DNA from: Gemmatimonadota bacterium
Lineage (GTDB): Bacteria > Gemmatimonadota > Gemmatimonadetes > Longimicrobiales > RSA9
Assembly (NCBI GenBank): GCA_007126035.1
Contig: SLCC01000036.1
Span: forward strand, 1-33,311
DNA: 33,311 nt
Direction: 5' to 3'
The position numbers and the translations under genes are program-made. Below, piece after piece: positions 14,883 through 32,107 of this stretch (position 1 is the first letter of the stretch; every line of letters starts with the position of its first letter). A model generated the notes under the pieces. The model was given only the letters and a program-made list of their open reading frames with translations. It had not been told where the DNA came from and ran no database searches.

Positions 14883-16322
14883 CTACGTTGTCGCGGCGAA
14901 ACCGCGGGCCACGGCCTGCCGGTTCAGCTCCAGCATCCCGTGGCTCTTGAGCACCTGGTCCATGGTGGCCTCCACCTCGGCCGCGCTGAACATGCCGGTA
15001 TGGGCCAGGTATGCGCCCAGCAAGACTAGGTTTGCCGCCCGCGTCTCGCCCAGCTCGTCGGCAATGGCGGTGGCCGGCACAGCAACCACCTCCACGTCCT
15101 GGCGGGTGGGCGTTTTCGAGATGAGCGTGCTGTTGTACACAATGACACCGCCCGGCGTGACCGTGGGCTCGAACCGCTCCAGCGACGGCGCGTTCAGCGC
15201 CATGAGCACGCTGGGCTCCGTGACCATGGGCGAGGCCACTGGCTCGGCGCTGATGACCACATTGCAGTTGGCGGTCCCGCCCCGGCTCTCGGGGCCGTAG
15301 GCCGGGAGCCAGGTGACGTGATAGTTCCGGCGCAGCGCCACGTTGGCCAGGAGCGAGCCGAGGAAGAGCACGCCCTGGCCGCCGAACCCGGCTATCTTGA
15401 CCTGGGGCTCACGGTACCGGTCGGCGACGCCGTCCCATGTGGGCTCACCGGTCCGCTCCACTGACGGCTCGGCTGCGAACAGCTCGGCCACCTTGTCCAG
15501 CGCCAGTTGGGGCGCCAGTCGCGTCTGGGGCTCCCGTTCCGCCAGTACGTCCTTGTAGACGCCCAGCGGGAAGGCGGGCATCAGGTGGTCCGTGATCCAG
15601 GCTTTGGACTCCGCCGGGTCCATCTTCCAGTTGATGGGGCAGGGGGAGAGGACCTCCACCAGGGAGAAGCCCTTGCCCTCGACCTGCGCCTTCAGCGCCT
15701 TACGCACCGCCCGCCGGGCCGTCATGATGTGCTTGGCGTCGGTGAGGGCCACCCGCTCGATGTAGACCGGCGCGTCCAGGGTGCTCAGGAGCTCGGAGAC
15801 CCGCAGCGGCGAGCCCGTGTCCATGGTGTCCCGGCCACGGGGGCTCGTGGTGGTCCGCTGGCCGTCCAGCGTCGTGGGCGCCATCTGGCCGCCCGTCATC
15901 CCGTAGATGGCGTTGTTGACGAAGAAGACGGTGATGGGCTCGCCACGGTTCGCAGCGTGGAGGATGTTGCTTGTCCCGATGGCGGCCAGGTCGCCGTCGC
16001 CCTGATAGCTGATGACCACGGAGTGGGGCAGGGCCCGCTTGATACCCGTCGCCACTGCGGGCGCCCGGCCATGGGCCACCTGTACGTTGCCGCAGTCGAA
16101 GTAGTAGTAGCCGAAGACGGAGCAGCCCACGGGGCTGATGAAGACGGTGCGCTCCCGGATCGCCAGGTCGTCCATGGCCTCGGCGATCAGCTTGTGGAGC
16201 ACACCATGGCCGCAGCCGGGGCAGTAGTGGGTGGACTCCTGCCCACCGCCCGGCTTCCGATGGAACGTGCGGTAGAGGGACTCGGGCCACTGGAGGACGG
16301 CCCCACCTGTCATCGTGCTCAT
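14883..16322 (-). CDS. 2-oxoacid:ferredoxin oxidoreductase, fused TPP and gamma subunits
   Basis: This 479-residue protein joins two subunits of the 2-oxoacid:ferredoxin oxidoreductase family. Residues 1 to about 290 are the TPP-binding beta subunit: CPGCGHG at about 34, [13 protein letters not shown] at about 107, and the NN pair in [14 protein letters not shown] that closes the TPP/magnesium site. Residues from about 305 are the gamma subunit, with GFGGQG and [14 protein letters not shown]. The complex oxidatively decarboxylates a 2-oxo acid with CoA to acyl-CoA and reduced ferredoxin. ATG at 16322 overlaps the VorB stop codon by four bases (ATGA) and has GGGAGG upstream, so translation is probably coupled. 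Similarity to VOR and KOR types does not settle whether branched-chain, aromatic or other 2-oxo acids are used. Confidence 0.9.
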
Positions 16323-17383
16323 GCCGACCTCCCTTCCGCCGGGTAGGCCGCTTCAATGGCCTTCACCAGCTCGTCCACCGAGGGCACCGCGCCGCCGTAG
16401 CGGCCGTGGAAGGCCACCGGTCGCCGGCCGTTCACCGCCAGCCGCACGTCTTCCACCATCTGGCCGGTGGACAGCTCCGCCACCAGGAAACCGCTGGCCG
16501 TCTCCGCCAGCTCCGCCAGGCGTTGGCTGGGGTACGGCCAGAGGGTGATGGGTCGAAGCATGCCCACGCGCAGACCCTGGTCCCGGACCCGGGCCAGAGC
16601 CGCCCGCAGCAGCCGGCTCACGATGCCGTAGCCCACCACCACCAGCTCCGCGTCTGCCGTCTGGACCTCCTCGTAGCGGACCTCCGCCGCTTCGATGCTG
16701 GCGTACTTCTCGAAGAGGGCGGTGACGTGCTCCTCCAGGTCCTCGGGCATGAGGCGGATGGAGTTGATCAGGTTGCCCGACGTCTCGGGCGTGGCCCGCA
16801 CCGCCCAGTCCTTGGGCGGGATACTGGTCACGGGCACCGGGAACTCCACGGCCTCCATCATCTGGCCGGTGAATCCGTCGCTCAGGACCACCACCGGGTT
16901 CCGGTACCGGTCCGCCAGCTCGAAGGCCAGCATGGCCAGGTCGCACATCTCCTGCGGGCTGTTGGGCGCCAGGACGATGAGCCGGTAGTCGCCGTGGCCG
17001 CCGCCCTTCACCACCTGGAAGTAATCGCCCTGGGCCGGCGCGATGTTGCCCAGCCCCGGGCCGCCCCGCATGATGTCGATGATCACCGCCGGCAGCTCGG
17101 AGCCCACCAGGTACGACACGCCTTCGAGCTTCAGGCTGATGCCCGGGCTCGAGCTGGCGGTCATCACCCGCTCGCCCGCGCTGGCCGCGCCGTAGACCAT
17201 CTGGATGGCGCCCACCTCACATTCCGACTGGACGAAGGTGCCGCCCAGCTGCGGTAGCAGGGCCGCCGCCGACTCGGCGATCTCGCTGGACGGTGTTATG
17301 GGATATCCGTAAAACGTGCGGCAGCCCGCCAGGACCGCCCCACGTAGCAAGGCATCGTTGCCCTTCACAAGTTCTACTGCCAT
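16319..17383 (-). CDS. vorB: 2-oxoacid:ferredoxin oxidoreductase alpha subunit, VorB type
   Basis: At 354 residues this matches VorB-type subunits (3-methyl-2-oxobutanoate:ferredoxin oxidoreductase). The pyrimidine-binding domain is recognisable in [31 protein letters not shown] and [28 protein letters not shown] is typical of VorB and KorA proteins. The CoA-side domain II follows from about residue 225. The subunit supplies the substrate and CoA pocket and works with the ferredoxin encoded upstream and the TPP/gamma fusion encoded downstream. ATG at 17383 lies 10 bp past the ferredoxin stop with GGAGAGGGG ahead of it. The acyl preference (branched-chain in characterised VOR) is inferred from the family. 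Confidence 0.88.
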
Positions 17384-17678: not shown

Positions 17679-18836
17679 CTACTTCAGGACTTCTTCGCCG
17701 GCGAACGCCCGCTCCGGCGACAGCTCGGCCAGGACCTCCCGGTCCTCCGCCGTCAGCCGGTCCAGCACCAGCCGCGAGAGCAGCTCGCCCAGGCCGGGGC
17801 CCAGCATGAACCCCTGCCCGCACATCCCGATGGCCATGAGGTAGCCCCCAGGCGCGTCAGCCCAACCGACCAGCGGCGAGCCGTCCGGGGTCATGGGATA
17901 AAGGCCGCGCCAGGTGCGACGAACCCTCAGCCGGGACAGCCGCGGCATCACCTCCACCATGCGACGGCTGATCTGGGGCAGGAAATCGCTGGTCTCCCGG
18001 CAGTCGAAGCCCAGGATCGGCGGATCGGGCGTGATGCAGAACGCCACCTGCCCCGTGGCCAACTGATGAAAATAGTAGTTGGCCGAGCCGGGCGCCGGGC
18101 GGATGTCCACCACCATTGGGTCCATGAAGTGGGCCACGGGCTCCGTTATCCCCGCCTCGTGGGAGTCGGGCTTGATGGGGTGGTCCAGGCCCACCAATCG
18201 ACCCACCTCCCCTGCCCACGCGCCAGCGGCGTTGATCACCACGTCAGCTCCGTACCGGCCCCGGTCCGTCTCCAGACCCCGGACACGGCCGCCCTCGACC
18301 ACTATGCCCGTTATCTGCTCGTTGTAGCGGAAGGTGGCGCCGTAGCGCTTGGCCTGGTCACAGTAGGCGTGGCCAGCCAGGAGCGGTGAGCAGTGGCCGT
18401 CGCCCGGGGAGAAGGTGCCGCCCAGCAGGCCGTCGGGGTTCAGGTCCGGCACTATCTCCAGCAGCTCGGCAGCGCCGTACCAGTCGATGTCCAGCCCGTG
18501 CATGTGCTGGCGGGTGAGCAGCTGCTTCAGCTTCTGCTCTTCCGTCTCACGATAGGCGACGAAGACGTAGCCGCCGCCGCGCCACTCGATGTCGTGGCCG
18601 TACTTCTCCTCCCAGCCGGACATGATCTCGATCGTCCGCAGGCAGAGCCTGATCTTGGCCACGTCCGAATGGGTGGCCCGGACGCCGCCGATGGCCGCCT
18701 TGTTCGAGCCCTGGCCCTGGCTGGGCAGGGACTCGATCACCAGCACCTTCAACCCGTCCCGGGCCATGGCCAGCGCCGCCGGCGCACCCACGCTGCCCGC
18801 TCCGATGATCGCTACGTCGTAGTGTGGCATCGTCAT
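17679..18836 (-). CDS. DAO-type FAD amino/imino acid dehydrogenase (beta subunit)
   Basis: A 385-residue flavoprotein of the D-amino-acid oxidase/glycine oxidase/sarcosine oxidase beta fold. The ADP-binding motif is VAIIGAGSVGAPAA near the N-terminus, the FAD-contact segment is at SNKAAIGGVRATHS, and the C-terminal FAD loop is MTPDGSPLVGWAD with AIGMCGQGFMLGPG. Relatives such as SoxB, HcnC, opine oxidase and D-hydroxyproline dehydrogenase beta subunits oxidise the C-N bond of an amino or imino acid and pass electrons to a partner flavoprotein rather than to oxygen. The gene overlaps the alpha-type gene by four bases (ATGA), which supports a complex. Substrate is not deducible. Sarcosine use is less favoured because the partner has no folate-binding domain. 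Confidence 0.86.
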   Translation of the reverse strand: MTMPHYDVAIIGAGSVGAPAALAMARDGLKVLVIESLPSQGQGSNKAAIGGVRATHSDVAKIRLCLRTIEIMSGWEEKYGHDIEWRGGGYVFVAYRETEEQKLKQLLTRQHMHGLDIDWYGAAELLEIVPDLNPDGLLGGTFSPGDGHCSPLLAGHAYCDQAKRYGATFRYNEQITGIVVEGGRVRGLETDRGRYGADVVINAAGAWAGEVGRLVGLDHPIKPDSHEAGITEPVAHFMDPMVVDIRPAPGSANYYFHQLATGQVAFCITPDPPILGFDCRETSDFLPQISRRMVEVMPRLSRLRVRRTWRGLYPMTPDGSPLVGWADAPGGYLMAIGMCGQGFMLGPGLGELLSRLVLDRLTAEDREVLAELSPERAFAGEEVLK

Positions 18837-20956
18837 GACCGGTCCCTCCCATTGCCAGACCCCGGCGCCGGGTCACCCGTCGAGACGGACCCGCCGGCGA
18901 ACACACCCAGCGGCACTTCCACGAAGAGCGGACGAGGGATGAACCCCTTGAAGTCCGCATCCGCCACGCCCTCCTCCCGGAAGAGGCGGGCTATCAGGGT
19001 GCCACACGTCTTGCCGCCACACGCGCCCATGCCGGCCCGGGTCACGGCCTTGAGCTCGTTCATGTCGCGGTAGCCCCGGCCGATCAGCTCCCTGATCTCG
19101 CCCGCCGTCACCCGCTCACAGCGGCAGACGATCTGCTCGTCCGTCAGCGGCTCCAGCGCCTCGGGCAGTGGCTGGGAGGCCCAGCCGCCCTGGAGCTCCA
19201 CGCCCGCCAGGTGCTTGGCCATGGCCGCGGGCACCCGGAGCTTCAGCAGCACCGTCCGGTCTCCCCTGGGTATGGGCTGGACGTCCTCCACCTCGACCGA
19301 GCCCAGGACCGCGCCCTCCGCGTCCAGTGCCACGAGCTGGTCACCGATGGCCACCGTGTCGGTGGCGAACTCGTAGGCCATGGTCACGGTGGGGTAGTCC
19401 GGCTCCCGCCGGTAGTCCACCAGGGTGATCGCCAGACCCGGGCAGATCACCACGCACTGCTCGCAGCCCAGACACTCATCCGCGTCGGGGCCGCCCAAAT
19501 ACTCCGGGACCTTCCGGATATCCTCCGGGTCGATGAAGATCAGGTCCTGTGGGCAGACCGACGTGCACGGATTGCACGGGATCTCCTCCGAGCAGTGGAA
19601 GACAGGCACCACGCCTACCTCGTCGGCCACCGGCGCCGGCGCCACACGGGCCCCCGGCTTGGACCTCAGGACCTCCGCCATCCGGGCCCACTCGGCGGGC
19701 ACCTCACCCGCCTCCACGCCTAGCGACCGGGCTATCTCCAGCCCCACCATCTTGCCGGAGAAGATGGCCGCCGACGCCTCGGCGATCTCCTGCGCGTCGC
19801 CGGCTGAGTAGACGGACATGCCGTAGCGGCGGGCGGCGTGGTAGAACTCGTCCACCGGGTCGAGCCCCACGGCTATCAGCAGCGTATCACACGCGTACGA
19901 CCGCTCCGTCCCCGGTATCCGCTGGAACGCCTCGTCTACCGCGGCGATGGTCACCGACTCCACGTGGCCGTCGCCCTGCGCCGACAGCACGGTGTGGGAC
20001 GTGTGGATCGGGACGCCCAGGCGGGCCAGCTTGTCCCGGTGCACCCTGTAGCCGCTGCACTCGGGCATGGCCTCGCAAAGTCCCACCACCTCGATGCCCG
20101 CCTGGAGGGCGTGGTAGCCGGCGATCAGGCCCACGTTGCCGCCGCCCACGATGAACAGCCGGTCCGCCGCCTTGACCAGGTCACGGTTGACCAGTGTCTG
20201 GAAGGCGCCGGCGCCGTAGACGCCCGGCAGCGTGTTGCCCGCGAAGGTCAGGGACTTCTCCCGCGCCCCAGCCGCTACCAGCAGCACCTCCGGCTCGACC
20301 TGTACGTACCGGCCGTCGCCGCGCAGCACACCCACCATGCCGTCGCTGTAGACGCCCAGAACGGTGGAGTTCAGCCAGACCTCCACTGAATCGAGCCCGC
20401 TCACGTCCCGCTCCAAGCGGGTGGCGATGTCGGTGCCCCGGGTGCCGGCATAGACGGCGTCGATAGAGCCGAAGAAGCGGTGGGTCTGGAGGACCAGCTT
20501 GCCGCCCAGCCGATGCTTGTCATCCACCAGCAGCGTCTGAACCCCCCGCCCAGCAAGCTCGAGGGCGGCCGACATGCCTGCCGGACCGCCCCCGATGATC
20601 AGAACCCGCGTCGCCACCGTCTCCACGTCACGGAGCGGCGGGGGCGACACCGCCCGCGGCAGCTCCGGCAGCCCGTCCGCCGGCTCAACCACCATGCCAT
20701 CACTGACCAGCTCCATGCAGCTCTTCACCGGCTCGCCGTCGGCTATCACCATGCACTGCGCGCACTGCCCGTTCGCGCAGAACAGGCCCTGCGGCGCGCC
20801 GTCCTTCGGGTGATGGCCGAAGACCTTTATCCCGGCAGCGTACAGCGCCGCCGATATGGTCTCGCCCTGATGGCTGGAAAGCTCCTGCCCACGGTAGGTG
20901 AACCGGACGGAGCGCGCCCGCTCCACCGGCAAGATCGGATGGTCGGAAAGCCGCAT
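18833..20956 (-). CDS. Multi-cofactor iron-sulfur flavoprotein (HcnAB/SoxA-like alpha subunit)
   Basis: This 707-residue protein strings together the redox parts that many bacteria encode separately. Residues 1 to about 100 form a [2Fe-2S] Fer2_4 domain (CANGQCAQC plus a later SC). At about 115-430 there is a disulfide-reductase fold with the FAD motif IIGGGPAGMSAA and an NAD-type motif IVGGGNVGLIAG. Two [4Fe-4S] sites lie at about 465-520 (CSEEIPCNPCTSVCP and CLGCEQCVVICP). Near 620-665 is a BFD-like [2Fe-2S] domain (CRC and GACGGKTC). It would accept electrons from the DAO-type partner and hand them to NAD, ferredoxin or a quinone-linked carrier. Unlike SoxA it lacks the C-terminal folate-binding (GcvT) domain. 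It is the first gene of the cluster; ATG at 20956 has only a weak ribosome site. Confidence 0.85.
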   Translation of the reverse strand: MRLSDHPILPVERARSVRFTYRGQELSSHQGETISAALYAAGIKVFGHHPKDGAPQGLFCANGQCAQCMVIADGEPVKSCMELVSDGMVVEPADGLPELPRAVSPPPLRDVETVATRVLIIGGGPAGMSAALELAGRGVQTLLVDDKHRLGGKLVLQTHRFFGSIDAVYAGTRGTDIATRLERDVSGLDSVEVWLNSTVLGVYSDGMVGVLRGDGRYVQVEPEVLLVAAGAREKSLTFAGNTLPGVYGAGAFQTLVNRDLVKAADRLFIVGGGNVGLIAGYHALQAGIEVVGLCEAMPECSGYRVHRDKLARLGVPIHTSHTVLSAQGDGHVESVTIAAVDEAFQRIPGTERSYACDTLLIAVGLDPVDEFYHAARRYGMSVYSAGDAQEIAEASAAIFSGKMVGLEIARSLGVEAGEVPAEWARMAEVLRSKPGARVAPAPVADEVGVVPVFHCSEEIPCNPCTSVCPQDLIFIDPEDIRKVPEYLGGPDADECLGCEQCVVICPGLAITLVDYRREPDYPTVTMAYEFATDTVAIGDQLVALDAEGAVLGSVEVEDVQPIPRGDRTVLLKLRVPAAMAKHLAGVELQGGWASQPLPEALEPLTDEQIVCRCERVTAGEIRELIGRGYRDMNELKAVTRAGMGACGGKTCGTLIARLFREEGVADADFKGFIPRPLFVEVPLGVFAGGSVSTGDPAPGSGNGRDRS

Positions 20957-22510: not shown

Positions 22511-22546
22511 TTGTTACGCTTCGGCCCCGAACATACAAGCACTGCA
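22511..22546 (+). promoter_or_regulatory. Candidate promoter for a leaderless regulator mRNA
   Basis: TTGTTA (22511-22516) and TACAAG (22534-22539) are spaced by exactly 17 bp, each matching the sigma-70 box at four of six positions. A start of transcription seven bases past the -10 box falls on the A of the ATG at 22546. The regulator gene has no recognisable ribosome site, which fits a leaderless message. Confidence 0.35.
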
Positions 22547-23655
22547 TGACCGATCGTGTCACACCGCTCGTGACCAACCCGGCCTCGCCTCGCGGTCGGG
22601 TGCTCGTCGTGGATGACGAGCCGGCCAACATCGAGTTTCTCAACCACGTTCTCTCCACCGAGGAACACATCACGTTCCTGGCGTCCAGTGACGCGCGCGC
22701 AGTGGCGGAACGCCTCGACGAGCTGGCGCCGGACCTGATCATCCTGGACCTCATGATGCCCGACTACGACGGCTTCCGGTTCATGGAGCGGCTCCAGGAG
22801 TGGCTACCAGCCGGTGATTACGTGCCGGTCCTCATCGTCACCGGTGACGCCACCGCCGATGCCCGTAGGCGGGCGCTGGCGGCGGGCGCGGCGGACTACC
22901 TGCTCAAGCCACTGAGTCCAGCCGAGGTGAGACTCCGGGTGCGCAACCTCCTCCATACCCGGCTCCTCCACAGCCAGCTCCGGGAGCATAACTGCCGTTT
23001 GGAGGAGCGGGTCCAGGAGCGGACGATGGCGCTGGAGCGGGCCCGGCACGAGACGCTGGATCGGTTGGCCCGGGCCGCCGAGTTCCGGGACGACCAGACC
23101 GGCCAGCACACGCAGCGGGTGGGCCAGCTCGCCGGACGGCTGGCCCAGACGTTGGGTCTGCCACCGGATCAGGTGGACCTCCTCCGCAGGGCGGCGCCGC
23201 TCCATGACATAGGCAAGATCGCCGTCTCGGACACCATTCTCCTCAAGGCCGGCCCCCTCACCACCGGCGAGCGAGCCGCGATGGAGCGACACACCACCAT
23301 CGGCGCGCGGATCCTGACCGGCGGGGAAGACCCGCTCCTCCGGTTGGCCGAGGAGATCGCCCTCACACACCACGAGTGCTGGGACGGGACCGGATACCCT
23401 CGACGCTTGAAGGGAGAAGCCATCCCTCTCAGCGGGCGAATCGTCAAGGTGGCCGACGTGTTCGATTCGCTGACCCACGTCCGACCCTACAAACGGGCAT
23501 GGACCACCAGGGAGGCGTTGGCGGAGCTACGGGGTGGGGCGGGCCGGAAGTTCGATTGCCGGGTGGTCGAGGCGCTCCTCCACATCGCTCCCCAGGTGGC
23601 CGTGCTGACCGGGGCCTTGCTGTCGGAGTCGGAGCCGGGTCAGGTGGCCGTCTGA
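22546..23655 (+). CDS. Response regulator with HD-GYP phosphodiesterase output
   Basis: A 369-residue two-domain protein. The receiver (about 15-135) has the acidic pair in VVDDEP, phospho-acceptor D68 in IILDLMMPD, the switch Thr in VTGD, and Lys in YLLKPLSP. A short coiled linker leads to an HD-GYP domain with LHDIGK and, later, [12 protein letters not shown] and the ADVFDSLT segment. HD-GYP domains hydrolyse cyclic di-GMP or related dinucleotides, so phosphorylation probably sets second-messenger level. The histidine kinase gene begins 2 bp after the stop codon and is the obvious partner. All metal-binding and GYP signatures look intact. No ribosome site precedes the ATG. Confidence 0.92.
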
Positions 23656-23657
23656 CG

Positions 23658-25163
23658 ATGCGGCTCCGTGCCCGCTACCTCCTGAGTCTGCTGGCCCTGG
23701 TCGCGATCATGACCGGCCCGGCCATCCACGGCGTCAGCCGCGTCCACGATCTCCGGGTCATCGCCCTCGACCTGCGTCACGAGGCGGCGGAGACCGCGAT
23801 CTCCGCCGGCCGCCTGAGCCGGGCGGTGGCGGAGCTGGACCGTCACCAGCGGGCCTACGTGGCTACCGCCGAACCGGGGATGCTCGAGCACGTCAGCGCC
23901 TCAATAGACAGGATCGAGGAGCAGGTGTGGGTGCTGGAAGCCCATGGCTACGGCGAGCAGCTCGGCGGAGGTGCCGGCGTGGCGCTGCTCCGGCAGTTCG
24001 CCGACTCCCTCAGCGCTCTGGTGGAGAAGGGCAACCTCGAGGCGGCCACGGGCCACGTCACACAGGCGGGGCGACCGCTCCTGGCCAGGGCCGATCAGGC
24101 TATCCTGGACCTGTCCGACGCCATAGACCGGAAGACGGCGGCCCGGGCCGCCGATGCGGAGCGGCTAGCAGCCACCGCCATGAACGCCATGAAGGTCGCC
24201 ATTCTGCTGGCCCTGGCCTTGGCGGTGATTCTGGCGTGGCTCGCCTCACGCCTCCTCACCCGGCCCCTCGAGCGACTGAGCCGGACCATGGCCCAGGTGG
24301 CGGAGGGCCATCCCGAGCTGCCTGTGGATGCGGCCACGGAGCGGGACGACGAGATAGGTGGCCTCTTCCGATCCCTCCACACCATGGCCGCCCGGCTCCA
24401 GGAATCGGACCGCGTGCGCGGGCATTTCCTCGGCGTCGCCAGCCACGACCTGAAGACGCCCATCAGCGTCATCATCGGCTACGCCGAACTGCTCGAGGAG
24501 GCGGGGGGTGACCTGGACCCGCGGCACCGGCGTATCCTGCTGTCGCTCCAGGAGCAGGCCAGATTGCTGGGCGAGAGGGTGGACCAGTTCGACGAGATCA
24601 GCAGGATGGAGGCGCGGGACCTCCGGCTCGGCGCGGAGGAGATACACATCCGGCACTTCGCCAATGACCTGGAGAAGGCCCTGGCACCCATCGCCCACGG
24701 CCAGGGCGTGGACCTGGTAGTCTCAGTCCGCAGCAGCGCTCCCACGTTCATCGTGGCCGATCCCGACTGCCTCCGCTCGCAGATCATCGGCAACATGGTC
24801 GCCCACTCCATCAAGTTCTCACCGCCCAATGGGGTGGTGCACGTGGAGTTCGGCGGCCAGGGCGGCCGGTGCGTCATCGAGGTGCGGGACCAGGGACCCC
24901 GGGTGCCGGACGAGCTGGTCGACCGACTGTTCGATCGCTACTTCACTGGCGCTTCGCCCGGCGGACGCGTCGGCTCCGGCGTGGCGCTACCGGTGGCCCA
25001 TGCAGTGGCGCAGGCCCACGGCGGGAGCATCACCGTCCGGTCCGACGCCTCGGGTAGCAGCTTCACCATCGATCTGCCGCTCCGGCCGCCGGTGGAGGCC
25101 TCCGCAGGCGACTGGTCGCTCACCTCCGCCCCGAGCCCGGCGCCCGCCGCGGGCACCAGGTAG
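23658..25163 (+). CDS. Membrane sensor histidine kinase with atypical ATP-binding boxes
   Basis: A 501-residue sensor starting 2 bp after the regulator gene. A first membrane helix (about 7-25), a periplasmic helical region resembling CHASE3 (about 30-170) and a second helix (about 178-198) are followed by HAMP. HisKA carries phospho-acceptor H263 in ASHDLKTP. The catalytic domain is unusual. The N-box reads N379-M-V-A-H383 where a second Asn is expected. G1 reads DQGPR where DxGxG is usual (R415). G2 reads GSGVALP in place of GxGLGL. The F-box LFDRYF and the final AHGG segment look normal. The domain fold is therefore intact but ATP binding may be weak or lost; it could act mainly as a phosphatase or need a second kinase. 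Signal unknown. Confidence 0.88.
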   Translation: MRLRARYLLSLLALVAIMTGPAIHGVSRVHDLRVIALDLRHEAAETAISAGRLSRAVAELDRHQRAYVATAEPGMLEHVSASIDRIEEQVWVLEAHGYGEQLGGGAGVALLRQFADSLSALVEKGNLEAATGHVTQAGRPLLARADQAILDLSDAIDRKTAARAADAERLAATAMNAMKVAILLALALAVILAWLASRLLTRPLERLSRTMAQVAEGHPELPVDAATERDDEIGGLFRSLHTMAARLQESDRVRGHFLGVASHDLKTPISVIIGYAELLEEAGGDLDPRHRRILLSLQEQARLLGERVDQFDEISRMEARDLRLGAEEIHIRHFANDLEKALAPIAHGQGVDLVVSVRSSAPTFIVADPDCLRSQIIGNMVAHSIKFSPPNGVVHVEFGGQGGRCVIEVRDQGPRVPDELVDRLFDRYFTGASPGGRVGSGVALPVAHAVAQAHGGSITVRSDASGSSFTIDLPLRPPVEASAGDWSLTSAPSPAPAAGTR

Positions 25164-25368
25164 GATTCCCGGCCCGGCACCGGTCACCCCCCGAGTCGCA
25201 CCCTTCTTGCACCTGACGCCACCGCATCCATAGCGGCTGGCGGCAGGAATGAACGGGCGTCGACACGACCGAAGGGTTAGACGGCATCGCGCGCGTCAGG
25301 GGGGACCGGTTCGCGGGTCCGGCCGACGGCCGGCCCGTGGTGTGCGCCGGCCGCCTCCCGGTAGGCGC

Positions 25369-26616
25369 ATGCCCGCCCGCGGCATGGGCGCCGTCGCCGG
25401 CGCCAGGGGCAGGCTCCGCAGCTTCCGGCAGGCGACCATTCTGGCGGTGGCCGTCACCGCGTTCCTCCTCCTGGTCTTCGTCCCGGACCAGACGGACGGG
25501 GCCCAGGAGCCGCCAGGGCCGGACACACCGGCGGTGCCGGTGGACGAGGTGCCGGACACCGTGGCCATAATCCAGGAGGTCCCGGTAGAGGACCTCCTGG
25601 CGGTGGACCAGGTAGATGAGCCGGAGGTCCCGCCCGAGGAACTGCCCAGGGCCACCCTCCAGGAGGCGGCCCAGACGCTGGAGGAGCTGTGGGTCGGATT
25701 CCTGAGCAACCTGCCCAAGTACCTGGTGGGCGTCGCCGTCCTGCTGGTTGCCTGGCTCCTGCACCGCGTGCTGCGGCCGATCCTGAGGCGTGCGCTTCGA
25801 AGCTTCACCCGGGCCAACGCCATCACCGCTCTCGTTGGAGTAGCCATATGGCTGCTGGCTCTGGGCATAGCGCTGAGCGTCCTTATCGGCGATATCCGCG
25901 CCCTGGTCGGGTCCCTCGGGCTGGTGGGGCTGGCCCTGTCCTGGGCCCTGCAGACGCCCATCGAGAGCTTCACCGGATGGCTGCTCAACTCCTTCCAGGG
26001 CTACTACCGCGTGGGTGACCGGGTGGCGGTGGGCGAGGTCTTCGGTGATGTGTTCCGGATCGACGTGCTGACGACCACCGTGTGGGAGATCGGGAGCCCG
26101 GAGCAGGAGGGTTTCGTGGCGGCGGAGCAGCCCACGGGCCGGCTCATAACGTTTCCGAACTACGAGGTCCTGCGCGGATCGATCGTGAACCTGACCAGGG
26201 ACTTTCCCTACGTATGGGACGAGCTGACGGTACCCGTGGGCAACAGGTCGGACATGAGCTATGCCGTGGGCGTGCTCGAACGTGTGGCCATCGACGTCCT
26301 GGACGATCACATGGCGGCCCCGGCACAAGAATACGAGGCCATACTGCAGGCAGCCCGACTGGAAGGCGCCGTCGCGGATCGGCCGCAGGTCTTCGTCTCG
26401 CTGGATGACTCCTGGACCAACCTGACGATCCGGTACCTGACCGCGGCGCGGGAGCGGCGAAAGTGGAAGAGCCTGCTGGCCAAGGCCGTGATGGAGGAGC
26501 TTGCCAAGGACGACCACGCAGAACGGATCGTATCGGTCTTCCCGCGGCGCCAGATCCAGTTCATCGGGCCGGACGGCAAGGCCCGGGACCTGCCGGGTGT
26601 GAGAGGGTCCACCTGA
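25369..26616 (+). CDS. Mechanosensitive channel, MscS family
   Basis: A 415-residue MscS-type inner-membrane channel that would open on hypo-osmotic shock. An N-terminal hydrophobic segment (ATILAVAVTAFLLLVFV) is followed by an acidic, Pro-rich periplasmic stretch, then helices at about 118-135 and 150-172. The pore helix is rich in Gly, Ala and Leu (ALVGSLGLVGLALSWALQ). The beta domain follows, with GYYRVGDRVAVGEVFGDV and the conserved ITFPNYEVL. ATG at 25369 has GGTAGG upstream; a longer in-frame start at 25249 would add an Arg-rich, improbable N-terminus. An in-frame ATG at 25384 is also possible. The gene converges with the thioredoxin-like gene, with only 11 bp between. Confidence 0.88.
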   Translation: MPARGMGAVAGARGRLRSFRQATILAVAVTAFLLLVFVPDQTDGAQEPPGPDTPAVPVDEVPDTVAIIQEVPVEDLLAVDQVDEPEVPPEELPRATLQEAAQTLEELWVGFLSNLPKYLVGVAVLLVAWLLHRVLRPILRRALRSFTRANAITALVGVAIWLLALGIALSVLIGDIRALVGSLGLVGLALSWALQTPIESFTGWLLNSFQGYYRVGDRVAVGEVFGDVFRIDVLTTTVWEIGSPEQEGFVAAEQPTGRLITFPNYEVLRGSIVNLTRDFPYVWDELTVPVGNRSDMSYAVGVLERVAIDVLDDHMAAPAQEYEAILQAARLEGAVADRPQVFVSLDDSWTNLTIRYLTAARERRKWKSLLAKAVMEELAKDDHAERIVSVFPRRQIQFIGPDGKARDLPGVRGST

Positions 26617-26627
26617 CCGTCAGCCCA

Positions 26628-27191
26628 TCAGCCTCCGCCGCTCCTGGCCAACCATTGATCATAGGCACCGGCGCCCAGCGCGGCTATCTCATCACGGCCG
26701 TCCACCGAGACCGTCTTGCCGGCACCATCGACCACGATCACCGTGGGGATCCAACGCACGCCATATCGCTGGCCCAGGCCTGACGCCTCGGTGGAGCCCC
26801 AGGCCACCGCCAGCCACGGCATCGAGGAATCCGTCATGTGGGCGAGCATGTGCTCCTGGCTCCCGTCCGAGCTGACGAGGACCACCTCGAACGACCGGTC
26901 CGCCTGGCGGATCTCATGGTAGGCATCCACCAGCAATGGAGTGAACTGGCCGCAGGCCGGGCACCCCTGAGCCGCGAAGTATATGGCGATGAGCGTCTTG
27001 TCCTCGACCTCCTCGATTCCCACCGAGGTGCCGTTCGCCCGGAGCAGCTGCTCGCCGAACAACTCCGCCAGGGACTCGGGAGGTGGGGGGCCGACCGGCG
27101 AATCGGTGCCGCAGGAAGCAACAATTGCGCACATGAGGATCGTCAGAAGGTTGGGTTTCCTCGCCCGGGTCCTGACACGTTGTGATCTCAT
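26628..27191 (-). CDS. Lipoprotein with thioredoxin-like domain
   Basis: A 187-residue exported thioredoxin-fold protein. The n-region is very basic (RSQRVRTRARKP) and leads to a short hydrophobic core ending VASC, so C27 is a likely lipid anchor. The redox site C77-P-A-C80 lies in FAAQGCPACGQF, and cis-Pro is in RWIPTVIVVDG. The arrangement, with a strand of VVLVSSDGS and the short VAWGS segment, resembles tryparedoxin or nucleoredoxin-like and AhpC/TSA-type members. It probably reduces or resolves disulfides in periplasmic proteins. ATG at 27191 was chosen over the longer frame from 27254 because it gives the lipoprotein signal. It is 131 bp from the YaiO-like gene on the same strand. Confidence 0.83.
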   Translation of the reverse strand: MRSQRVRTRARKPNLLTILMCAIVASCGTDSPVGPPPPESLAELFGEQLLRANGTSVGIEEVEDKTLIAIYFAAQGCPACGQFTPLLVDAYHEIRQADRSFEVVLVSSDGSQEHMLAHMTDSSMPWLAVAWGSTEASGLGQRYGVRWIPTVIVVDGAGKTVSVDGRDEIAALGAGAYDQWLARSGGG

Positions 27192-27322
27192 CGTCGCATC
27201 CAGCAGGTATGGTGGCCGTCTCGGGACGATAAGACGGGCCCAGAGTCCGGTCAAGACGGCCCGTCAGCTCCCGCTCCGGCCCCTGGTCCCCCGGTCGGGC
27301 GGCCCGAGCCGGGCTGACCCAG

Positions 27323-28126
27323 CTACAGCCGTCGTCTGATACCCACGCTCGATGAGGTCCGCGTGAAGTGGGGGCCGTGGCGGTGGATGCCGAAGTTGTA
27401 CCCGATACCGGTGTTCCGATCGAGCCAGTGGGTGCCGGAGACTCCCGCGGACCGCTCCGTCACGGACCGCACGTCCTGAGGCCCGATGATCATGGCGTCC
27501 CGACCCGTGCCGAGCCATACGGCCAGGTCGCTGCCCCGCCGGTCATAGGTCCAGCCACCGGTCACGCCGTGGCGGACCCCGCTACCACCGATGTCGACCT
27601 GGTGGAGGCTCAGGCGGTAGCCGAGCCGGAAGGGCGGGAAGTGGCGGACCACGCCCACGTGCTGCCGGTTCACGCCAGTCACGTCCCAAACCTGGCGCCC
27701 GCCGCCGACAGACAGCACCCAACCGGGCGCCAGGTTGTGGCTCACCATGCCCGATGCTCCCCAGATGGGCAGCACCCGCTGGGTCGGGCTCCAGGTACCC
27801 TCCAGCCGCAGCGTCCAGCGAGGCGCGATTGGCATTCCGCCGCCCGCCTCCAGCTGCTGGTCCTCCTGGCCGAACCGACGAGTGTGGCGCACGCCGCCGT
27901 AGACGAACGTGCCGGGCGCTGGACGCACGGTGGCCCGGATCCAGTAATCTTCCCACGGCTCTTGGTCGCCGGTCAGAACCTCCCGGGAGGCGCCCGCCTC
28001 CACGTCCACGGGCAGGGCGGCCTGAGCCGCCACGCCCCCGGCTCCTGGCCAGAATGCCCACGACAGGGTCAGTGCCAGACAAGCCAGCGCCGGCCCCCGC
28101 AGCATCCTACCAGTTGATGCAACCAT
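27323..28126 (-). CDS. YaiO-like outer-membrane beta-barrel protein
   Basis: A 267-residue outer-membrane protein of the YaiO type. The signal peptide ends near GGVAAQA. The mature part is a series of amphipathic strands with aromatic girdles: FVYGGVRHTRRFG, PRWTLRLEGTWSPT, VLSVGGGRQVWD, FRLGYRLSLHQVD and VGIRRRL at the end. YaiO family members occur in many diderms and their transport or structural role is unclear. ATG at 28126 has a strong ribosome site (GAGGGG). The family name rests on the tandem barrel pattern and its glycine turns, and is less certain than the barrel itself. Confidence 0.75.
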   Translation of the reverse strand: MVASTGRMLRGPALACLALTLSWAFWPGAGGVAAQAALPVDVEAGASREVLTGDQEPWEDYWIRATVRPAPGTFVYGGVRHTRRFGQEDQQLEAGGGMPIAPRWTLRLEGTWSPTQRVLPIWGASGMVSHNLAPGWVLSVGGGRQVWDVTGVNRQHVGVVRHFPPFRLGYRLSLHQVDIGGSGVRHGVTGGWTYDRRGSDLAVWLGTGRDAMIIGPQDVRSVTERSAGVSGTHWLDRNTGIGYNFGIHRHGPHFTRTSSSVGIRRRL

Positions 28127-29203: not shown

Positions 29204-29255
29204 CCCCCACGTCACTGGTTGCGAAATCCCCCTGGCCCAGAACGGGTAAGGACAC

Positions 29256-29270
29256 CCCGCCCAGGGCGGG
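29256..29270 (+). terminator. Palindromic stem after purC
   Basis: CCCGCCC-A-GGGCGGG is a perfect 7-bp palindrome about 52 bases past the purC stop and upstream of the S9 peptidase start. No T-run follows. Weak evidence for termination. Confidence 0.35.
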
Positions 29271-29302
29271 AAGGTCTCCCCAGTAGCAGCGGGACGGGTT
29301 AT

Positions 29303-29341
29303 CGTCAGGCATCGCTGATCCCAGTGGCAAGGAGCCTGACG
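29303..29341 (+). promoter_or_regulatory. Stem-loop enclosing the ribosome site of the S9 gene
   Basis: CGTCAGGC (29303-29310) and GCCTGACG (29334-29341) form a perfect 8-bp stem whose right arm ends at the base before the ATG at 29342. The ribosome site AAGGAG (29329-29334) lies at the loop edge and enters the stem by one base. The structure could limit ribosome access or be an operator. It also supports 29342 as the start. Confidence 0.45.
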
Positions 29342-32107
29342 ATGCCGTTACCGAGGCGAGCCGAGACGCGGTTCCCGGTTGTGCTGCTACCCATAGTACT
29401 CCTGCTGACGCTCACCGCGATGGCGCCTGCGCCTGCGGACGTGGCGCCAGCGTCCCCGGAGCTGGCGCAGCAGGTCCGGGCCAGCGACGCCGACACCGCG
29501 CGGGTCAGCGTCCAGTTCGACGAATGGCTGGTGCTGGGGCCCGTGGCCTCACCACTGCCCGCGCTCCAGGACCCGGAAGAGGACGTCCTGCTGGAGACTG
29601 CCCTGATCCACCTGGACCACGTCTGGCCTGGCGCAGGCGAAGCGGTCGAATTGCCCGGCGGGCAGTTGGCCACGTGGACCACGCAGCGGCCCGACCAGGA
29701 TGATAGCATCGTCCTGGAGCCGCCGGCGTCCGGGCCGGCCATGGCATACCTCATCGCCTACGTGGAGGCCCGCCGATTCACGAACGCCCGACTCACCGTC
29801 ACCACGTCGCACCCGGTGCGGGTGCTGCTGGACGACCGGCAGGTGGCGGTGCGACGCAGCGGCGGCGACGCCACGGCCGAGCTGGCCCTCACCCCGGGCC
29901 GCCACATGGTGCTGGTCCAGACCGCCTGGAGCCCGGAGACCCACGACCAGGCCCTGACCGGCGACGAGCCAGAGACGGCCGACCTGCCACGGGCCGGAGA
30001 CCTGCCACCGGCCGGCGACCTGGCGGGGGCCGGCGAGCCCGGGGATGGCCAGAACGCCGCCGCGCCCTGGACCGTCTCCGCGACGCTCAGCCACGAGACG
30101 TCGCCCGCAGGCACGGCGCCACGAATCATCGTCGACTCATCACCCACGAGGCCGCTGCGCCTGGTGGACCTCCTGGACACCGAGGCCGTCTCGAGCGCCA
30201 CCATATCACCGGACGGCGAGCTGGTGGCCGTGGCGTTCCGTCAGCCGGAAGTGCCCGCGCCGCTCCAGGAGAGCTGGCTCGAGATCCGGGGGACCCGCAA
30301 CGGCCAGGTGGTCCACACGTTCCGCGCCAACAGCCCGGTGGCAGGCTTCTCGTGGTCCCCCGACGGCGGGATCTCCTACGTCACCCGGCGGGACGGCGGG
30401 AAGGCCACCCTCTGGGTGGGCGACCTGGATGGCCCCGTCCGTCCCGTGCTCCGTGACGTGGAGCGCTTCGGCTCCTACCGCTGGCTGCCGGATGGTCGGA
30501 GCATCGTCTACACCGTCACCGAGCGGGCCGAGCAGGACGACAGCGGGCTGCGACGCATGCGGGGCCTCCGGGATCGCCTGCCCGGCGCCCGCAACCGCAG
30601 CCACCTCTACCAGGTGCAGGTGGCCAGCGGCGCTACCCGCAGGCTCACCGCCGGCCCCGAGTCCACGGGCCTCCTGGACATCAGTCCCGACGGCGCCAGG
30701 CTCCTGTTCACCCGGGGACGGTTCGTCCAGGAACGACCCTATAGCGAGACCGAGCTCTGGGAGCTGGACCTGGCCACCCTCGAGGCACACAAGGTCACTC
30801 GCACACCGGGCAGCCTCGGCGCTTCCTACTCCCCCGACGGTGATCGGCTACTGGTCACCGCCGGGCCGTCCGCCTTCGACGGCGCCGGCAGCACCCTACC
30901 CATCGGCACCATACCCAGCGACTACGACGGGCAGGCCTACTTCATGGACAGGGTCACGGGCAAGGTGACGCCCCTCACGCGGGATTTCGACCCCGCCGTC
31001 CAGCAGGCCGCCTGGTCCCACGCCGATGGGATGATCTATCTGGTGGCGCAGGAGGGCGACCGCGCCCGCCTCTTCCGCCTCGATCCGCGGCGGGGAAGCT
31101 TTGCACGTATCGAGACGGGCGTAGACGTGGCCGGCGGGCTCAGCATGGCACGGACCGCGCCCCGGCTCACCCTCACCGGCTCGTCATCCGCTGGACCACC
31201 GCAAGTCGTGGCCCTCGACGTTTCCCGCTCACCACGGCTAACCACGGTGGCGGCGCCCGGAGCCGAGACCTTCGCCCGCACCCGCCTGTCACAGGTCCAG
31301 GACTGGTCGTTCCAGACCAACGACGGCACCACCATCCCCGGCCGCGTCCACCTGCCGCCCGACTACGACCCGGAGCACTCGTACCCCGTCATAGTCAACT
31401 ACTACGCAGGCGTCACCCCCGTATCCCGTAGCTTCGGCGGCCGCTACCCCTCGGACGTATGGGCAGGGATGGGATACGTCGTCTACATCCCCCAGCCCAG
31501 CGGAGCCATCGGGTGGGGGCAGGAGTACTCAGCCCGCCACGTGAACAACTGGGGCGCTACCGTGGCAGACGAGATCATCCAGGGCGTGGACGCCTTCCTC
31601 AACGCCCACCCGAACATGGACCGCGAACGCGTCGGCTGCATCGGCGCCTCCTATGGCGGGTTCATGACCATGCTCCTCACCACCCAGACCGACCTCTTCG
31701 CCGCGTGCGTCTCCCACGCTGGGATCAGCAACATCACCAGCTACTGGGGCGAAGGTTGGTGGGGCTACGGCTACAGCGCCGTCGCCACCGCCGACAGCTA
31801 CCCCTGGAACCGGCCGGACATCTACGTGGAGCAGAGCCCACTCTTCCGCGCCGACCGTATCACCACCCCACTGCTCCTGCTGCACGGGACCGCAGACACC
31901 AACGTCCCGATCGGGGAAAGCGAGCAGCTCTACACGGCTCTCAAGCTACTGGGACGGAACGTGGAGTACATCCGCATCCAGGGCGAGGATCACCACATCC
32001 TCCAGTACCCGAAGCGGAAGCTGTGGATGGAGACCATCCTGGCCTGGTTCGACAAGCAGCTGAAAGGCGAGCCGGAGTGGTGGGAAGCCCTCCACGGCAA
32101 GGATTGA
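29342..32107 (+). CDS. S9 family (DPP IV-like) exported peptidase
   Basis: A 921-residue serine peptidase of the prolyl oligopeptidase family, DPP IV/acylaminoacyl peptidase branch, exported by a signal peptide (PRRAETRFPVVLLPIVLLLT). An unusual N-terminal region of about 200 residues precedes the propeller and ends in a DLPxAG repeat tract. The propeller shows SPDGELVAVAF, WSPDGGISYV and SPDGDRLLVTAG. The C-terminal alpha/beta-hydrolase has the triad S770 (GASYGGFM), about D852 (HGTADTNVP) and about H884 (GEDHHILQYP). It removes N-terminal dipeptides or cleaves short peptides, probably after Pro or small residues. The start at 29342 has AAGGAG seven bases upstream, which decides it over the longer frame from 29219. 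Confidence 0.92.
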   Translation: MPLPRRAETRFPVVLLPIVLLLTLTAMAPAPADVAPASPELAQQVRASDADTARVSVQFDEWLVLGPVASPLPALQDPEEDVLLETALIHLDHVWPGAGEAVELPGGQLATWTTQRPDQDDSIVLEPPASGPAMAYLIAYVEARRFTNARLTVTTSHPVRVLLDDRQVAVRRSGGDATAELALTPGRHMVLVQTAWSPETHDQALTGDEPETADLPRAGDLPPAGDLAGAGEPGDGQNAAAPWTVSATLSHETSPAGTAPRIIVDSSPTRPLRLVDLLDTEAVSSATISPDGELVAVAFRQPEVPAPLQESWLEIRGTRNGQVVHTFRANSPVAGFSWSPDGGISYVTRRDGGKATLWVGDLDGPVRPVLRDVERFGSYRWLPDGRSIVYTVTERAEQDDSGLRRMRGLRDRLPGARNRSHLYQVQVASGATRRLTAGPESTGLLDISPDGARLLFTRGRFVQERPYSETELWELDLATLEAHKVTRTPGSLGASYSPDGDRLLVTAGPSAFDGAGSTLPIGTIPSDYDGQAYFMDRVTGKVTPLTRDFDPAVQQAAWSHADGMIYLVAQEGDRARLFRLDPRRGSFARIETGVDVAGGLSMARTAPRLTLTGSSSAGPPQVVALDVSRSPRLTTVAAPGAETFARTRLSQVQDWSFQTNDGTTIPGRVHLPPDYDPEHSYPVIVNYYAGVTPVSRSFGGRYPSDVWAGMGYVVYIPQPSGAIGWGQEYSARHVNNWGATVADEIIQGVDAFLNAHPNMDRERVGCIGASYGGFMTMLLTTQTDLFAACVSHAGISNITSYWGEGWWGYGYSAVATADSYPWNRPDIYVEQSPLFRADRITTPLLLLHGTADTNVPIGESEQLYTALKLLGRNVEYIRIQGEDHHILQYPKRKLWMETILAWFDKQLKGEPEWWEALHGKD
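29981..30034 (+). repeat. Three 18-bp in-frame repeats within the S9 gene
   Basis: Three near-identical 18-bp units begin at 29981, 29999 and 30017 and encode DLPRAG, DLPPAG and DLAGAG (residues 214-231). They form a Pro/Gly/Ala-rich linker between the extra N-terminal domain and the beta-propeller. The in-frame period suggests slippage expansion of a flexible linker. Confidence 0.85.

Follow-up and report, generated by a model that had tools for sequence, protein, structure and literature searches.

What does a histidine kinase do when the Asn that should hold the metal of ATP-Mg has become a His and the phospho-acceptor His and its neighbors are intact? The question is raised by a gene in the window, the whole stretch of 33,311 nucleotides that we analyzed, which is one whole contig (G000:C62) in a draft genome of 218 contigs. 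The gene encodes a histidine-kinase-like membrane protein of 501 aa in an open full-length frame, and its ATG is 2 bp past the stop of a gene for a response regulator with an HD-GYP output domain (REC-HD-GYP). Judging from its sequence, the protein is probably an off-switch rather than a kinase.

The ATP-binding motifs are partly degenerate and the H-box is intact

The protein has the domain order of a class I (HisKA-type) histidine kinase, HisKA followed by HATPase_c. HAMP, HisKA and HATPase_c all scored above the curated Pfam cut-offs, and the N-terminal part was long and helical in the predicted structure. The reading frame and residue numbers in a preliminary description of this DNA were correct. 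The relevant features are:

22546..23655, + strand: response regulator with HD-GYP output, 369 aa (P0002), likely partner (Pfam Response_reg, HD_5, HD)
23658..25163, + strand: histidine-kinase-like membrane protein with degenerate ATP-binding boxes, 501 aa (frame, Pfam, orthologues)
24243..24404, + strand: HAMP domain, residues 196-249 (Pfam PF00672)
24417..24614, + strand: HisKA (DHp) domain, residues 254-319 (Pfam PF00512)
24444..24458, + strand: H-box His263-Asp264-Leu-Lys-Thr267 (sequence; roles from papers)
24777..25085, + strand: HATPase_c (CA) domain, residues 374-476 (Pfam PF02518, 71.6 bits vs a cut-off of 26.4)
24804..24806, + strand: His383 codon CAC, replacing the metal-binding N-box Asn (sequence, alignment)
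24888..24902, + strand: G1 box DQGPR, residues 411-415, with Arg for the second Gly (sequence, alignment)
24972..24992, + strand: G2 box GSGVALP, residues 439-445, with Val442/Ala443 vs the family Leu (or Ile)/Gly (alignment)

The CA fold was kept in the predicted structure, with block-mean pLDDT of 81-94 for residues 341-420 and 74-89 for residues 441-480; the lid between these two regions was poorly predicted. The top Foldseek matches of this structure were HK853 complexes, and the best PDB matches included HK853 and DivL. By sequence, DivL was the second-best PDB match.

Each ATP-binding box was damaged only partly. The motif changes in the preliminary description were all present. The boxes read N379-M-V-A-H383, D411-Q-G-P-R415 and G439-S-G-V-A-L-P445, and the N, G1 and G2 boxes are each incomplete (His383, Arg415 and Val442/Ala443, respectively). 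Still present are Asn379, Lys386, Phe387, Asp411 (which binds adenine), Gly413 (the first of the G1 glycines) and the GxG of G2 (Gly439 and Gly441). In an alignment with 29 relatives, the second N-box position was His in the window kinase and Asn in 28/28 relatives other than that from one genome, G009 (Asn in 28 of the 30 aligned family members). The second G1 position was Arg in the window kinase and Gly in the same 28 relatives, and G2 had Val-Ala rather than the Leu-Gly (Ile-Gly in a few) found elsewhere, with Gly443 in 28/28.

We scored 34 CA sites at which at least 90% of the 28 canonical relatives agree. Nine of these were changed in the window kinase (25/34 kept) and seven, one of them a gap, in the G009 kinase (27/34 kept). 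Three sites were altered in both proteins, two of them to the same residue (Ile376 and His383). Leave-one-out scoring of nine canonical relatives gave 0-4 changes of 34-36 conserved CA sites. At conserved DHp sites, the window kinase was changed at 5/20 and the G009 kinase at 2/20.

As had been described, the phospho-acceptor His263 is intact; it lies within SHDLKTP. The H+1 acid (Asp264) and the H+4 phosphatase Thr (Thr267) are both beside it, matching the transmitter-phosphatase motif H-[D/E]-x-x-[T/N]. H263, D264 and T267, within HDLKT, were found in 4/4 members of the clade described below.

The change in the N-box is likely to matter most for activity. In EnvZ, the second N-box Asn is N347. 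The N347D mutant is described as kinase-minus and phosphatase-plus in parts of PMC12583154 and in a title cited in PMC5727384 and PMC6023141. In VanS, the second N-box Asn is a ligand of the ATP-Mg metal and no clear role is assigned to the second G1 Gly, according to the relevant excerpts of PMC10017428. In CpxA, excerpts of PMC3904827 describe Asn360 as essential for autophosphorylation; by its spacing from Asn356, Asn360 appears to be the second N-box Asn. These reports bear out the earlier statement that this Asn binds metal and is needed for kinase activity. Because the Asn is a metal ligand or essential and the second G1 Gly is without a clear role, we gave the N-box change the most weight, and loss of the Asn should abolish or cripple autophosphorylation of the window kinase. 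We gave less weight to the missing second G1 Gly as evidence of inactivity because of the VanS data and because CusS has a non-Gly residue there. Retention of Asp411, Asn379, Lys386 and the GxG of G2 leaves room for nucleotide binding or weak kinase action.

Histidine can bind metals, and the protein might still be a kinase of low but useful activity if His383, or a shift in the geometry of water or metal, makes up for the Asn. Several ATP-site residues are kept, HATPase_c scored well above its cut-off, the G1 end is non-Gly in CusS too, and the same His is found in two genera at 45% identity, as if functional. We nevertheless consider a working kinase unlikely: the other 28 aligned family members all have Asn, its equivalents are essential or a metal ligand in the excerpts on CpxA and VanS (PMC3904827, PMC10017428), and the window-specific Val442 and Ala443 add a change in the G2 loop.

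The Asn-to-His change is shared by two genera and is otherwise rare

The kinase in G009, from another genus of the same family, was the nearest relative (45% identity) and shared both the His and its CAC codon. It also had Pro in place of the second G1 Gly, and its G2 was canonical. Two further orthologues, in G011 and G003 (41% identity), had all three boxes canonical, with AAT at the second N-box codon. The preliminary description had asked whether the motif changes are conserved in orthologues. Conservation held for His383 and for loss of the second G1 Gly, both in G009, and failed for the G2 changes, which were confined to the copy in the window. As in degenerate histidine kinases (pseudokinases), the protein has a recognizable predicted fold and a replacement of an essential catalytic residue that is conserved between species, in two genera with one genome each.

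The two His-containing kinases are sisters even when the altered motifs are ignored. In a kinase tree that left out the columns of the three boxes (N, G1 and G2), the window and G009 kinases were sisters (97/89) inside a four-member clade with the G011 and G003 orthologues (100/100), and paralogues from the window genome and G009 formed their own canonical pair (100/100). Because the two group together without the motif columns, a single origin is probable: the Asn-to-His change probably arose once, in the ancestor of the two lineages, and was then retained, with the extra changes added in the window lineage.

Sequencing or assembly error as the origin of His383 is ruled out by the same His in G009. 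The preliminary description had suggested that orthologues with standard boxes could expose this copy as a sequencing artefact; such orthologues do exist (G011 and G003), but the second genome removes that explanation for His383. An error of this kind could still lie behind the G2 changes seen only in the window.

His383 is rare among the HATPase domains of the genome and of the order. There were 49 HATPase_c places in the window genome, of which 48 were translated and 47 had an N-box; Asn was at the second position in 46 and His only in the window kinase. Across the order (154 genomes), three sites matched an N-box pattern of the His type (the window kinase, its G009 orthologue and a site in G094), compared with 903 Asn-type sites in 111 of the 154 genomes, a relative comparison since the patterns are incomplete (14 Asn-type matches in the window genome vs 46 read directly). 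Reversed-pattern controls gave one match each for the His-type and Asn-type patterns, so one chance match was expected. The third His-type match (G094:C29) was judged to be due to chance, as it has stops on both sides and no open kinase frame.

The clade itself has few members. It was present in 4/12 genomes of the family that we examined, including that of the window, and those 12 genomes contained no closer relatives than the four members. No further members were found in the 154 genomes of the order (best 10 candidates per genome scored) or in 395 genomes drawn from the phylum (best three candidates scored). Three remote loci with 19-31% identity were left out of the comparison.

The kinase gene is paired with an intact REC-HD-GYP gene

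The preliminary description had placed an intact HD-GYP regulator beside the kinase, and this was confirmed by the Response_reg and HD domains in Pfam and by the HD-GYP motifs read from the sequence. Receiver Asp68 and the HD and GYP motifs of P0002 are intact. A REC-HD-GYP gene is directly upstream of the kinase gene in G000, G009 and G011, with the motifs and the receiver Asp intact in 3/3, as for a conserved two-component pair. The G003 contig begins at the kinase gene, placing any upstream partner outside the view. The partners in G009 and G011 were 62% and 59% identical to P0002, and the corresponding kinases 45% and 41% identical to the window kinase. We compared DHp specificity residues, using HK853 positions taken in part from entry titles, and found nothing decisive. 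In the wider canonical family, a rough motif tag identified the kinase in five stretches (L037, L043, L044, L048 and L050) and marked no HD-GYP frame beside it.

We compared nine other open reading frames of the window with the stretches around relatives, and none had a match near the G009 pair. One of the nine, the S9 peptidase gene at 29219-32107, matched in part (27%) some 4 kb away from the G011 pair, which we take for an unrelated family member. The kinase gene is followed by a gene for an MscS-type mechanosensitive channel at 25249-26616 (+; Pfam MS_channel_2nd), for which there was no match near the orthologous pairs of G009 and G011. Elsewhere in the window are two neighboring genes that carry pyruvate/2-oxoacid:ferredoxin oxidoreductase domains (14883-17383, -) that adjoin genes for FAD-dependent oxidoreductases (17679-20956), and a thioredoxin-like gene together with a YaiO-type beta-barrel gene (26628-28126, -). 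The window genome has a second HD-GYP gene, 50% identical to P0002, that adjoins a kinase with the N-box Asn and a different H-box (G000:C43:54493-57258), and a relative has two tandem HD-GYP regulator genes beside a HisKA-type frame (G004:C108:12974-15165).

His263 might receive phosphate from the CA domain of another kinase, in a heterodimer or phosphorelay, and pass it to the HD-GYP receiver. His263 and Asp264 are intact, and the genome also encodes a full-length canonical paralogue (identity 33% overall and 51% over the DHp part) and dozens of further HATPase domains. Heterodimers between kinases so different are uncommon, and we saw no conserved kinase gene beside the kinase/HD-GYP pair, making this route doubtful and, in our judgment, very unlikely. 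The motif tag also marked one further frame near the G009 pair; with neither an N-box nor a G1 motif, this seems to be a chance match.

Rates of change give no clear sign of relaxation in the CA domain

We compared rates of change for pairs separated by the same genome split. The degenerate pair (window and G009) differed by 1.41 changes per site, compared to 0.72 for the canonical paralogue pair. The canonical HD-GYP-linked pair was likewise fast, with 0.48 compared to 0.27 for the paralogue. No specific acceleration of the degenerate pair is clear, because in each of the three regions examined the 5-95% range of the rate ratio relative to the control pair spans 1 (60 resamplings of columns for each region, used for both branches and rates). 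The stem branch of the His-containing pair had a median of 0.43 for CA (5-95% range 0.21-0.69), 0.18 for the sensor (0-0.39) and 0.10 for HAMP and DHp (0-0.27). These ranges overlap, and with the rate ratios not clearly different we rejected a CA-specific relaxation.

We think it extremely improbable that the protein is decaying and non-functional. The faster evolution relative to the canonical paralogue pair would fit decay, but the canonical HD-GYP-linked pair is fast too, the frame is open, the gene pair is kept, most conserved CA sites are unchanged in both genera, and both have the same His. We rejected a pseudogene on the strength of the open frame, the conserved sites and the predicted fold.

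The preferred reading: a sensor-gated phosphatase

We think there is about an even chance that the protein is a kinase-dead or very weak histidine kinase that acts as a sensor-gated transmitter phosphatase of, or phosphate drain on, its HD-GYP partner. The CA domain would lack efficient ATP-Mg phosphotransfer, and the sensor, HAMP and DHp parts would still work. The membrane region would sense a signal and switch the DHp helices, turning dephosphorylation of Asp68 of P0002 on or off. Asp68 would be phosphorylated by another kinase or from a small donor, and the phosphate would be removed by phosphatase action via Thr267 or by back-transfer to His263. Dephosphorylation would in turn set the c-di-GMP hydrolysis expected from the HD-GYP domain. 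We favor a phosphatase because HDxxT is kept and because there are precedents in EnvZ-N347D, RetS and DrBphP. The sharing of the Asn-to-His change and the loss of the second G1 Gly by two genera that are sisters on the motif-free tree, and the H-box residues kept throughout the clade, are also in its favor, as are the intact receiver Asp and HD-GYP motifs of the partner in three loci and the predicted CA fold.

Each precedent resembles the window kinase in part. EnvZ-N347D is changed at the same N-box position and has an intact H-box, with the kinase-minus, phosphatase-plus phenotype reported in the sources above; it is a single engineered change, to Asp, in an osmosensor of E. coli with OmpR as partner, whereas the change in the window kinase is to His, is natural and conserved, is accompanied by changes in G1 and G2, and is paired with an HD-GYP protein. 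RetS of Pseudomonas aeruginosa is, in the excerpts of PMC5992135, a natural HisKA protein with a degenerate HATPase domain and an intact phosphatase motif in the H-box (HExxT) that acts as a transmitter phosphatase against a receiver. As described there, RetS is without the conserved G-boxes, contains receiver domains and has the kinase GacS as its target; the window kinase has no receiver domain and its gene adjoins that of a regulator.

The bacteriophytochrome DrBphP of Deinococcus radiodurans is a natural kinase-less HisKA phosphatase with an N-box Asn changed to His (PMC8292422, in part). We initially took this to be the same substitution as in the window kinase and then withdrew that equation: His648 of DrBphP is expected to pair with H+1, and the H+1 partner in CpxA is Asn356, the first N-box Asn (PMC3904827, in part), so His648 would be at the first N-box position and His383 is at the second. 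The H+1 and H+4 residues differ as well, being His and Glu in DrBphP and Asp and Thr in the window kinase. Its phosphatase activity needs ATP, by the account in the excerpts of PMC8292422, which counts against a phosphatase here, as the damaged site might not bind the ATP that a DrBphP-like enzyme needs.

DivL of Caulobacter also counts against a phosphatase. It is a natural kinase-dead HisKA/HATPase protein that, in the part of PMC4211667 that describes it, carries Tyr in place of the phospho-acceptor His and lacks phosphatase activity. The window protein could likewise be a scaffold with neither activity that senses a phosphorylated receiver or a ligand and binds the HD-GYP protein or another kinase. 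The rank of DivL among the PDB sequence matches and the altered DHp sites (5/20, vs 2/20 in G009) are in keeping with this. A pure scaffold would have no use for the phospho-acceptor His and phosphatase Thr, both of which are kept, unlike the acceptor in DivL, and we regard a scaffold as quite unlikely. By sequence alignment, DivL keeps the second N-box Asn that is His in the window kinase.

Degenerate histidine kinases as such are already known. Among the titles and abstract openings of the open-licence papers listed by our searches, we found no description of a naturally occurring His at the second N-box position or of the window protein. It is possible, and we propose it tentatively, that a clade-specific single Asn-to-His exchange converted a two-component kinase into a phosphatase that is gated by its sensor and dedicated to a c-di-GMP-degrading regulator. 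The protein would then be an equivalent of EnvZ-N347D made by nature and kept by selection, with canonical sister kinases of the same family as before-and-after pairs.

If the protein is a sensor-gated phosphatase, then the clade would be a before-and-after set, with G011 and G003 canonical, G009 changed in the N-box and G1, and G000 changed also in G2. The set would show a bifunctional histidine kinase losing one of its two activities while the gene pair persists, and would be a further case of a c-di-GMP phosphodiesterase that is controlled mainly by dephosphorylation.
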